Assembly: GCA_022826505.1 (NCBI GenBank)
Contig: JAJDUQ010000189.1
Span: forward strand, 1-64,000
Reading direction: 5' to 3'
Source: Gammaproteobacteria bacterium
GTDB lineage: Bacteria > Pseudomonadota > Gammaproteobacteria > HK1
Length of the DNA: 64,000 nt
This document shows, one piece after another, positions 12,130-16,504 of this stretch. Made by a program: the position numbers and the translations under genes. The notes under the pieces were generated by a model, which made no database searches, was not told where the DNA came from, and saw only the letters and a list, made by a program, of their open reading frames with translations. The first letter of the stretch is position 1; every line of letters starts with the position of its first letter.

Positions 12130-13680
12130 TCAGTACCGCGTAGACCTTCGGGGTCCGGAGCTGATGGCTCCCATAATCGCGTCGACATGGCGGCTCATGA
12201 CGGCCAGTTTCAGGTCGCGACCGGCGGGATCGTCCCAAAGGTCTTCGAATTCGTCAGGATCGCTTTCCAGATCGTACAGCTCTCCGAGATCGTGGCCTCG
12301 ATACGTCACCATCTTGTAGCGCCCATCGAAGCTCATGAACGCCTGCGTGGGATCGTTGCCCCCTTCGCTGAAGTTGCACGAATCGTGAAACTCCGAAACC
12401 ACCATGAACTTCCCTGTGGCCGTATCCTCGCCCAGCAGGGCCGGGATCAGGGATCGGCCCTGCATGACGTACGGCACGTCGACACCCGCGGCCTCGAGGA
12501 GCGTCGGTGCCACGTCGATCAGCTCGGTCAGCGACTCCGAAGTGCGGCCGCCGGCAACCCGGTTCGGCCACGAGACGATCAGGGGCACCCTCACGGATCC
12601 CTCGAAGAACCGAGCGCCCTTGTAGACCAGGCCATGGTCGCCCAGAAGCTCGCCGTGGTCGCTCTGAAAGACCACCAACGTGTTGTCCAGCTCCCCGGCG
12701 GTGTCGAGCGCGTCCAGCAGCTCGCCAAGGTGCAGGTCGATCATCTCGATCATGGCGTAGTAGCCGCACTTGATCAGGCGGGCGTTGAAACTGTCGCCGG
12801 CGCCCGAGCCGGGAGCACGCTCCCCGGGTCGCCCGAGATCGAGAGGATCGCGGGCGAAGACGTTCTGCGCCCGAATGCCGTGGAAGCGAGGCTGGCGCTG
12901 GAGGTCCTCGGAGCGGAACACCGGCGCCGGAACGTCCTTAGGATCGTACCGATCGAGGAATTCGCGCGGCGGGAGATAGGGTGAATGCGGGTCGTATGGG
13001 TTGATGCTGAGAAGCCACGGCCCGTCGCGTTCTTCCGCGACGAAGCGGAGCGCCATCTCGTTGGCCCACTTGGTCTGCCGCAGAGCCTCGTGGGCGCCCG
13101 GTCGAACGATATCTCCCTGTCCGGCATGGGAGCGACCGCGATCCCGGAGGTCGTAATGCGGCAGGATTGTGTTCGGGTCGACGCCCTTTTCGTTGCGCAG
13201 CCAGGCGAGGTATTCGTTGAGGTCGTCGGCGGCTTCGCCGGGATAGGGCAGGTTCGACCAGTGCACGACGCGGTACCCGTCGTCGTTGCGCGCTTCTCCA
13301 CGCTCGGAACTGGAAAGATGGAGCTTGCCGATGAGGGCACAATCGTAGCCCGCATCGGCCAGCAGGCGGGTGACCAGAATTTCGTCACGGGGAAAACGCT
13401 CGGCGCCATTGCGGTACACGTGGTGCGACGCGCAGTACCGGCCGGTCATGAAGCTCGCGCGGCTCGGCGTGCAGAGCGTGCTCTGGGCGTAGGTCCGGGT
13501 GAACGCGACCCCGGTTGCGCACAGCCTGTCGATGGCGGGAGTACGGATGTAGTGGTTGCCGAGCGCCGCCACGGTGTCGTAGCGCTGTGCATCGGTGCAG
13601 TACCACAGGATGTTCGGGCGCTCGGTCACCGATCCCTCCGAGCCGGCAGCGTCATGTTCGGATTCCAGCGGCGAATTCAA
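12130..13680 (-). CDS. Sulfatase (formylglycine-dependent)
   Basis: RPNILWYCTDAQRYDTVAALGN; sulfatase signature CTPSRASFMTGRY; FQSDHGELLGDHGLVYKG. Confidence 0.92.
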   Translation of the reverse strand: MNSPLESEHDAAGSEGSVTERPNILWYCTDAQRYDTVAALGNHYIRTPAIDRLCATGVAFTRTYAQSTLCTPSRASFMTGRYCASHHVYRNGAERFPRDEILVTRLLADAGYDCALIGKLHLSSSERGEARNDDGYRVVHWSNLPYPGEAADDLNEYLAWLRNEKGVDPNTILPHYDLRDRGRSHAGQGDIVRPGAHEALRQTKWANEMALRFVAEERDGPWLLSINPYDPHSPYLPPREFLDRYDPKDVPAPVFRSEDLQRQPRFHGIRAQNVFARDPLDLGRPGERAPGSGAGDSFNARLIKCGYYAMIEMIDLHLGELLDALDTAGELDNTLVVFQSDHGELLGDHGLVYKGARFFEGSVRVPLIVSWPNRVAGGRTSESLTELIDVAPTLLEAAGVDVPYVMQGRSLIPALLGEDTATGKFMVVSEFHDSCNFSEGGNDPTQAFMSFDGRYKMVTYRGHDLGELYDLESDPDEFEDLWDDPAGRDLKLAVMSRHVDAIMGAISSGPRRSTRY

Positions 13681-13703: not shown

Positions 13704-13780
13704 TGGCGCCCCGGACAGGAGTCGAACCTGTGACCTTCCGCTTAGGAGGCGGACGCTCTATCCGGCTGAGCTACCGGGGC
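13704..13780 (-). tRNA. tRNA-Arg (anticodon CCT), CCA encoded
   Basis: Reverse complement gccccggtagctcagccggatagagcgtccgcctcctaagcggaaggtcacaggttcgactcctgtccggggcgcca folds as cloverleaf; loop CTCCTAA. Confidence 0.95.
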
Positions 13781-13808: not shown

Positions 13809-13824
13809 TGGTGGAGCCGATGGG
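13809..13824. repeat. Distal att-like direct repeat of the tRNA-Ala 3' end
   Basis: TGGTGGAGCCGATGGG identical to 16429-16444 (3' end of tRNA-Ala). Confidence 0.75.
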
Positions 13825-14660
13825 CGTTGCTGGTGGAGATGGGGGGCACCCTATTTGAATGTCAAGTTATTGATTCCAAAGGATTCAATTTCCAACCTGC
13901 TCCATCACTCTCCCACAAAATCTACCACACTCCCTTTTCGGTGACACTCGCAGTTTCTCGACGTACGCATCGCGCCTCTGAACCGGGCCGAGAACGTCAG
14001 TCCGATGCGCTGCTCCGCCTCCTCTGCGTTCTCCTGGCGCACTCCTTCGAGGTGGACGTTCTCTCCGGGAGCGAGCGCTCAGCGCGCCCCCAGGCGAAGC
14101 GTGCGCGCGTCCTCTGCCAGTCCCAGCCCTGTCGCATTGCTCCGACCAGTGAGCGGATCGACCGGATTCGGTGATCGGATTCACGCCGAATCGGCGATCA
14201 GGTTCACCGGAATGCGGTAGAGGCCGTCCTCGTCGAGGATCAGCGTCTCGCTGAAGGCGGCGATCTGGAGCAGCCTGGGCCGGTCCGCTGCATTGCGGCA
14301 CAAGCGTGTCCGTGTCGTCCGGCACGCCATCGGTGTCGTCGACAGTGCCCCTCTCGGCAGTCAGCGTCGTGCACACGCGGGCGGATCCGAGATGGTGGGC
14401 TCGCGCCCGTAGCGGCGACGTTGACGCGTGCTTCCGTGGTCCCGCTCGCCGGACAGGCGTCGCTCTTTCGCGACTTCGCGTCTCCGGTGTTGTCGGTGAA
14501 CGACAATCGAACCGCCACTCAACGCTCATGCTCAAGCTCGGCGCGGCGAACAACGACGCCAGCCGGGCTTGGTTCCTCGTCGAGGTCCACGTCCCGCTCA
14601 CCGACGAAGAGCGGCACCGCCCACGGGCTCAACTTGCCGATACGGTACGAAGCGCCGGAG

Positions 14661-15476
14661 ATGTCCGTGCACCCGGACGGCACGATCAACGTGCGCCCCG
14701 AGAGCACGATCGGCGAGGGCGGACACCGGGTGCGCCTGCATATCGTGATCAAGAAGCCGCCGGGCGACGGACCGTTTCCGGTGGTGGTGTTCAACCACGG
14801 GTCGGTGGCGGGTGAGCCCAGAAACGAAGGCGACCGCAGGCGCGTCCACACGCCAGGGGCGCTCGTGCAATTCTTCATCACGCGCGGCTGGATGGTGGCA
14901 ATGCCGCAGCGACGCGGCCGCGGCTGGTCCGACGGACGGTACGGCGAAGGCGTCAACGCGAGAGGAACGAACTACACCTGCGACGCAGCGCCGACGCTCG
15001 CCGGGGCGCGTCGGGGGCTCGAGGACATCGAAGAGGCGATGCAGCTACTCGAGGCCCGCACCGACGTCGACGGATCGCGAATCGTGATGGCCGGACAATC
15101 GAGAGGCGGCATGCTGGCGGTCGCGTACGCGGGACGCCAACCCGGCGAAGTGCGCGGCGCGGTCAACTTCGCGGGGAACTGGCTCGACGACGAGTGCGAT
15201 ACGTCCAACGCGGTCAACAAGCAGATCCTGCGCATGGGAAGCACGTTCCCCGAACCCACACTATGGCTCTACGGAGGCCGCGACGCAGGCCAGTCCACGA
15301 GACAGACCCGGGGCATTTTCCGCAACTTCAAGCACCACGGGGGCAAGGGCCGACTCGCGATCTACCCCGATGGCGACCACTACATCATCGGATACCCGTG
15401 GGTGTGGAAGGAGGACTTGGCCGAGTACATGACATCGCTGGGGTTTCGGGAGTTCGAAACGGCACGGCAGCGATGA
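14661..15476 (+). CDS. Alpha/beta hydrolase (dienelactone hydrolase / prolyl-oligopeptidase-like); N-terminus uncertain
   Basis: FPVVVFNHGS...GRGWSDGRYGEG...DGSRIVMAGQSRGGMLAVAYAGR (GQSRGG nucleophile elbow), DGDHYI; ORF open from 14421 but upstream residues look non-coding. Confidence 0.65.
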   Translation: MSVHPDGTINVRPESTIGEGGHRVRLHIVIKKPPGDGPFPVVVFNHGSVAGEPRNEGDRRRVHTPGALVQFFITRGWMVAMPQRRGRGWSDGRYGEGVNARGTNYTCDAAPTLAGARRGLEDIEEAMQLLEARTDVDGSRIVMAGQSRGGMLAVAYAGRQPGEVRGAVNFAGNWLDDECDTSNAVNKQILRMGSTFPEPTLWLYGGRDAGQSTRQTRGIFRNFKHHGGKGRLAIYPDGDHYIIGYPWVWKEDLAEYMTSLGFREFETARQR

Positions 15477-15559
15477 ATGTGGTGTCCTTTGCATGGACGT
15501 CGGGCCCTCGTGAGGAATCACTCTTGGCCCGTGGCGCCGCCGGTTTTCTCCCTTCTGCT

Positions 15560-16055
15560 CCTAACACCGTGTCGTCGCCCGACTCGGTCGTCGGGTCAAA
15601 TCCGGCAATGGTGAAGGTGGTGCGCGTTTCGTGACGAGCGATTCCTGCGCCCGCGCCGACGTAAGGGCGCGTTGGCCCCCGGGTTGGAAAGTCGTAGGAC
15701 GCGGCCAACGTCACCGTCCACACGTCGGAGTCTCCGGTGAGACCGTAGGGGATGCTGACGGGGTGACCCTCGACCCGGAGATTGGTGATCGCTTCAATGT
15801 CGACCGGGGCGTAGCCCACCTCAAGCGCAAGGCGGACATTCTCCGTCACCCGGGCGCCCACGGCTGCGGAGAACGCCGCTGCGCTGGCGTACTGCGTCTC
15901 GGCGCTCACACGGCCGAAATCCGTGAGGCGGCTCGTGTGCGAATCGCGGGGCATCGCGTGGAAGCCCGACAAGGTCACGAACCAATCGGACCGCTCGTCG
16001 TCGACCCCCGGCGTCTCGGCATGTGCACTCGCTGCGCAGAGGATGATCAGGGCGG
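15560..16055 (-). pseudogene. Truncated outer-membrane beta-barrel protein (OmpW/opacity-like)
   Basis: Signal-like ALIILCAASAHAETPG then WFVTLSGFHAMPRDSHTSRLTDFGRVSAETQYASAAAFSAAVGARVTENVRLALEVGYAPVD...VTLAASYDFPTRGPTRPYVGAGAGIARHE; no in-frame ATG/GTG upstream and barrel pattern lost at the 3' end. Confidence 0.5.
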
Positions 16056-16076
16056 GCGTCGTTCCGCACCTGGGCG

Positions 16077-16247
16077 ATGGAGTGCACCAACGCCGATCTT
16101 GCGGTGATGGAGATGAGCTTGGGCCACGTCGTGGCCTCGGCGGTCGTGGAGGTCTATGCCCGAGGAGAGCTCATCAAGAAACGTCGCGCGTTGATGGACG
16201 CGTGGGGCCTGTTTGTGACCGGGCAGGGCGGTGCCGATTCCGCCTGA
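16077..16247 (+). pseudogene. C-terminal remnant of P4-type tyrosine integrase
   Basis: Reads (FRTWA)MECTNADLAVMEMSLGHVVASAVVEVYARGELIKKRRALMDAWGLFVTGQGGADSA*, matching the FRdWA.e.tn...e.aLaH.vg..ve.aYrRgdl.eKRR.LM.aWa pattern. Confidence 0.75.
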
Positions 16248-16428
16248 AGGCCCCTTGGATGCAAGCGCCGGGCGGTGCATTCGCCCGTGCGCTTGTCCCA
16301 CATTTTCTACCACCGTCTTCGCTGTGTGGCAGGGATCGTCCCGGGTTTGCCTGGGTCGTCCCTTCGTTCGAATATCCCTTCCAAATCCGGGAGATACGAC
16401 CGATTTGGGGCCTCATGACCGATTTTGT

Positions 16429-16504
16429 TGGTGGAGCCGATGGGGGTCGAACCCACGACCTCAGCATTGCGAACGCTGCGCTCTCCCAACTGAGCTACGG
16501 CCCC
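16429..16504 (-). tRNA. tRNA-Ala (anticodon CGC), CCA encoded
   Basis: Reverse complement ggggccgtagctcagttgggagagcgcagcgttcgcaatgctgaggtcgtgggttcgacccccatcggctccacca; loop TTCGCAA. Confidence 0.94.

Follow-up and report, generated by a model that had tools for sequence, protein, structure and literature searches.

A 2.6-kb stretch beside a gammaproteobacterial tRNA-Ala(CGC) gene is very probably a decayed integrative element with its attachment sites kept

P4-type tyrosine integrases use the 3′ ends of tRNA genes as attachment sites, the gene being left whole while a displaced copy of its 3′ end marks the far border of the element. Direct repeats of 16–20 bp are common among genomic islands located in tRNA genes, and Islander-type islands have an intact tRNA gene at one end and a displaced 3′ fragment at the other, with Islander also applying an integrase criterion and a length filter (PMC6917214). 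A remnant which has lost its integration and transfer genes, or has these truncated, and which keeps both attachment sites and is left with cargo is defined as a cis-mobilizable element, or CIME (PMC5704250).

The locus described here lies in a 64,000-nt stretch of DNA (the window), and its best reading is that of a CIME-like remnant, a well-known kind of structure, in a gammaproteobacterium. As in the CIME concept of the ICESt1 type, the integration genes are lost, with 62 integrase codons remaining, and exact core repeats and cargo are kept; no transfer genes were recognised in the insert. It differs from that concept in its tRNA-Ala site, its P4-type integrase and its gammaproteobacterial host. 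With tRNA-integrated islands carrying P4-type (arm-type DNA-binding) integrases it shares the tRNA 3′-end target, the 16-bp direct repeat and an integrase remnant by the tRNA, whereas it is only 2.6 kb long, with so short an integrase and a host-like composition. The intact tRNA gene at one end and the displaced 3′ fragment at the other are shared with Islander-type islands.

An earlier note on this DNA had described the stretch as a decayed island bounded by a 16-bp duplication of the tRNA-Ala(CGC) 3′ end, and both copies of the 16-mer, TGGTGGAGCCGATGGG, were found to be exact (see Table 1). These are the only two exact copies within the 6.23-Mb genome to which the window belongs, one at each end of the island. 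Within the window, a search allowing up to two mismatches gave two matches against 0.04 expected from shuffles. As ARAGORN places the tRNA-Ala(CGC) gene on the reverse strand at 16429–16504, the right copy of the repeat corresponds to the terminal 16 nt of this gene, with the encoded CCA included. A second tRNA gene, tRNA-Arg(CCT), which is absent from the earlier note, is situated outside the left copy, with its 5′ end 28 bp away. With mismatches, the similarity of the left and right repeats extends over 22 nt (20/22). Directly inside the left repeat there is also a poorer third copy, reading TGGTGGAG-ATGGGGGG with 3 nt missing, which may be either a small tandem duplication or the scar left by a previous integration event here.

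Table 1. Features of the probable island remnant and its borders, with positions in the window.
Feature	Position	Strand	Basis and remarks
tRNA-Arg(CCT)	13704–13780	-	ARAGORN; adjoins tRNA-Ala in relatives; outer boundary, ancestral tRNA-Ala/tRNA-Arg pair
Distal attachment-site copy, duplicating the last 16 bp of tRNA-Ala	13809–13824	+	Exact match; empty sites have one copy
Third, less exact copy of the 3′ end of tRNA-Ala, with 3-nt gap	13828–13847	+	Repeat family D1, 80%
Putative integrase arm-type site TCCCACAaaaTCTACCAC	13911–13928	+	Core motif only at island ends; shuffles
Frame-broken remnant, autotransporter-like barrel C-terminus (provisional)	13980–14600	-	Weak similarity within own genome
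Apparently intact alpha/beta hydrolase of 271 aa (DLH / Hydrolase_4 type)	14661–15476	+	Pfam above cut-off
Outer-membrane beta-barrel protein, cut at both ends	15559–16059	-	Pfam and homologue alignment
P4-type tyrosine integrase, remnant of the last 62 codons with the stop	16059–16247	+	Alignment to congener integrase C-termini; annotated matches
Second putative integrase arm-type site TCCCACAtttTCTACCAC	16296–16313	+	Core motif only at island ends; shuffles
tRNA-proximal attachment-site copy (tRNA-Ala 3′ end)	16429–16444	+	ARAGORN and exact repeat match
tRNA-Ala(CGC), intact, integration target	16429–16504	-	ARAGORN

A distance of 2,648 bp separates the two tRNA genes in the window. The same pair was located in four congeners, with spacings of 21 bp in G002 and 20 bp in G003 (the two nearest, with one copy of the 16-mer each), 66 bp in G004 and 176 bp in G001. 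Removal of one repeat copy together with the enclosed DNA would leave a spacer of 28 bp, and an artificial query with the flanks fused at the repeat gave a 90% match, over all or almost all of its length, to G002 (query positions 3–201) and G003 (3–183). A strict pattern, consisting of a gap of 15–44 bp and a single 16-mer, was present in these same two genomes and absent from the window's own genome; the empty-site pattern had zero matches in IMG/VR. As the 28-bp spacer to the left of the repeat in the window is not clearly alignable to the 20–21-bp spacers of G002 and G003, we infer the exact empty site from the arrangement and not from identical sequence. The order of the flanking genes is kept in G002 and G004, with psd on one side and arsS and two glycosyltransferase genes on the other (71–84% protein identity), which shows the locus to be orthologous. 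Across the insert, nuoN-psd on the left and arsS and the two glycosyltransferase genes on the right are syntenic with the congeners. None of the four congeners carries the insert, with the hydrolase, the barrel gene and the left fragment all absent. With an empty tRNA-Ala site in G002 and G003, and with no congener holding the same content beside a left repeat conserved as an unrelated sequence, the island reading of the earlier note is upheld.

The integrase remnant claimed within the stretch proved to be a genuine P4-type integrase C-terminus. It translates as SFRTWAMECTNADLAVMEMSLGHVVASAVVEVYARGELIKKRRALMDAWGLFVTGQGGADSA followed by a stop and contains the motif series SFRTWAxE...LGH...VEVYARGELIKKRRALMDAW. 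Its best matches are the C-termini of integrase genes of G002 and G003 (46–50% identity, open frames of 414–433 aa), and the annotated matches from plasmids and phages are integrases, several of them named as "integrase arm-type DNA-binding domain-containing protein". No Pfam model reached the threshold with the remnant and a search of PHROGs gave weak matches only; its identity was settled by the alignment to the congener integrases and by the annotated plasmid and phage matches. The alignment of C-termini covered those that were alignable (G002, G005 and G012) and showed the C-terminal catalytic block to be present, namely FR-x-W-x-x-E, L-G/A-H, the Tyr in VExxYAR and the KRRxLMxxW tail. A complete P4-type integrase gene, with arm-binding domain and first catalytic Arg, was not found, with everything upstream of 16059 deleted, and the barrel gene is broken off at this same point. 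The integrase C-terminus ends 181 bp from the tRNA-side repeat.

A paired motif, TCCCACAnnnTCTACCAC, was detected with both copies in one orientation: at 13911, 86 bp inward from the left repeat, and at 16296, 115 bp inward from the right one. Its core, CCCACANNNTCTACCAC, has exactly two exact copies in the genome, one per island end. Among 1,000 shuffles, 4 gave a match of this quality between the two ends with the strand kept the same (P = 0.004), and 7 did so with either strand allowed. The pair, noticed after the fact, may represent arm-type binding sites of the lost integrase. It should also be noted that CCCACANNNTCTACCAC matches ten identical places in G003 which are not obviously integrase sites; these ten identical copies of CCCACAAGCTCTACCAC (contig C1, loci L085 and L089–L097) probably sit inside a multi-copy transposable element.

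Of the cargo, the alpha/beta hydrolase of the earlier note is a real gene, with a GQSRGG nucleophile motif and a DGDH motif. It is most likely intact cargo and not debris, its length being close to that of annotated homologues: those found on plasmids are approximately 251–255 aa and cover the same domain. Its third-position GC of 0.83 is like that of the host genes (0.74–0.81). The gene was not found in 54 relatives, nor was a close relative of it found in GTDB contigs or IMG/VR. The best match in the phylum has 42% identity, and as all homologues, from other Pseudomonadota and from rhizobial and other plasmids, are at 42% or less, no donor can be named. The barrel gene, with a Pfam OMP_b-brl match just below the curated cut-off (E 2e-5), is truncated as claimed; in comparison with a homologue in G006 (34%) it has lost the first codons with the start codon region as well as about 70 C-terminal residues. 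The region with broken frames was traced to 13.98–14.60 kb, where stops and frame changes occur and where the readable 98 aa hold two in-frame TGA codons. The 3′ part of this left fragment has weak similarity to the C-terminus of one of the genome's own barrel proteins (42% over 45 aa, E 0.07), and no match was found against Pfam, plasmids or relatives. We provisionally regard it as a probable C-terminal piece of an autotransporter-like barrel protein.

Composition gave no support to the island reading, as the stretch matches its host. Its GC content is 0.650 against 0.654 and its tetranucleotide distance is at approximately the 75th percentile of the window; the foreign base composition that is a common, but not obligatory, trait of islands was thus not observed. 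Composition methods on their own would therefore miss this remnant.

The 2.6-kb stretch is very probably a decayed integrative element which entered at the 3′ end of tRNA-Ala(CGC) and kept its attachment sites, and the attL/attR structure of a shrunken tRNA-integrated element, as earlier claimed, is borne out by the empty sites, the integrase C-terminus and the direct repeat. An element with a P4-type tyrosine integrase would have recombined at this 3′ end, within the narrow spacer that separated the two tRNA genes, rebuilding tRNA-Ala and moving its former 3′ end to 13809. Deletions that followed would have reduced the integrase to its last codons and removed most of the cargo. The same decay would have cut the barrel gene at both ends and broken the frame of another gene, leaving the hydrolase open and, at either end, a core site accompanied by a possible arm-type site. 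Such a remnant would be immobile alone, and it might in principle be excised in trans by an integrase sharing the specificity of the lost one. Neither a helper element of that specificity nor, in the collections searched, an intact copy of the parent element came to light. There is a small chance that the 2.6-kb unit is instead a minimal non-autonomous element, composed of core and putative arm sites and an intact hydrolase, which a P4-type integrase present elsewhere in the population would mobilise in trans.

The gap between the two tRNA genes is filled in other lineages of the class as well, with 0.8–5.8 kb between them in G005, G010, G012, G013, G015, G016, G027, G033, G035 and G042 (loci L042–L048, L050, L051 and L053). 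The ORFs read in seven of these spacers resemble ordinary genes, and the stretch in the window could likewise be the product of gene accretion without site specificity in a tolerant spot. However, none of these spacers repeats the tRNA 3′ end (the longest match is 10 nt) and visual inspection of the ORFs in the seven spacers read revealed no integrase, whereas the window has both the 16-nt repeat and an integrase end; accretion is accordingly thought to be very unlikely for this stretch. The repeat-free filled spacers do show that the conserved tRNA-Ala(CGC)/tRNA-Arg(CCT) gap is a tolerant and recurrent place for gene gain in this group. Of the genomes examined, that of the window is the only one in which the site-specific event is seen.

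Since the left copy is derived from a tRNA gene and adjoins another tRNA gene, it could also be taken as the leftover of a second tRNA-Ala gene, arisen by duplication, with the enclosed DNA being ordinary chromosome. Against this, only 16 to 19 nt resemble the tRNA and nothing of the remaining gene can be traced, the congeners have one tRNA-Ala at this place directly beside tRNA-Arg, and the insert contains an integrase end, so that this explanation is disfavoured and given even less weight than accretion. An assembly chimera would be conceivable in a metagenome-assembled genome of 346 contigs with 7.4% contamination, but it is the least probable of these explanations, as the genes on both sides are syntenic with the congeners and the composition is uniform. 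The decayed element favoured here is a real and well-explained finding, ordinary in kind, on which no long-standing question depends. It does provide a clean example, accompanied by an empty site in congeners, of a tRNA-integrated island that has shrunk far and is still recognisable by its two attachment sites.

Two further observations were made on the surroundings of the tRNA pair. In G003 the tRNA-Ala/tRNA-Arg pair (L036, G003:C1:2060200-2066500) is located away from psd, arsS and the glycosyltransferase genes, with arsS approximately 350 kb from the pair (L098), which points to a rearrangement with a breakpoint in or close to this pair. In the window, a sulfatase-like ORF of 516 aa (12130–13680, reverse strand), named from its sequence, lies between psd and tRNA-Arg. 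A second island at this position is not claimed; no repeat of the tRNA-Arg 3′ end longer than 10 nt was found. As psd is almost directly beside tRNA-Arg in G002 (L035) and G004 (L038), the sulfatase-like gene also looks like an insertion in the lineage of the window.
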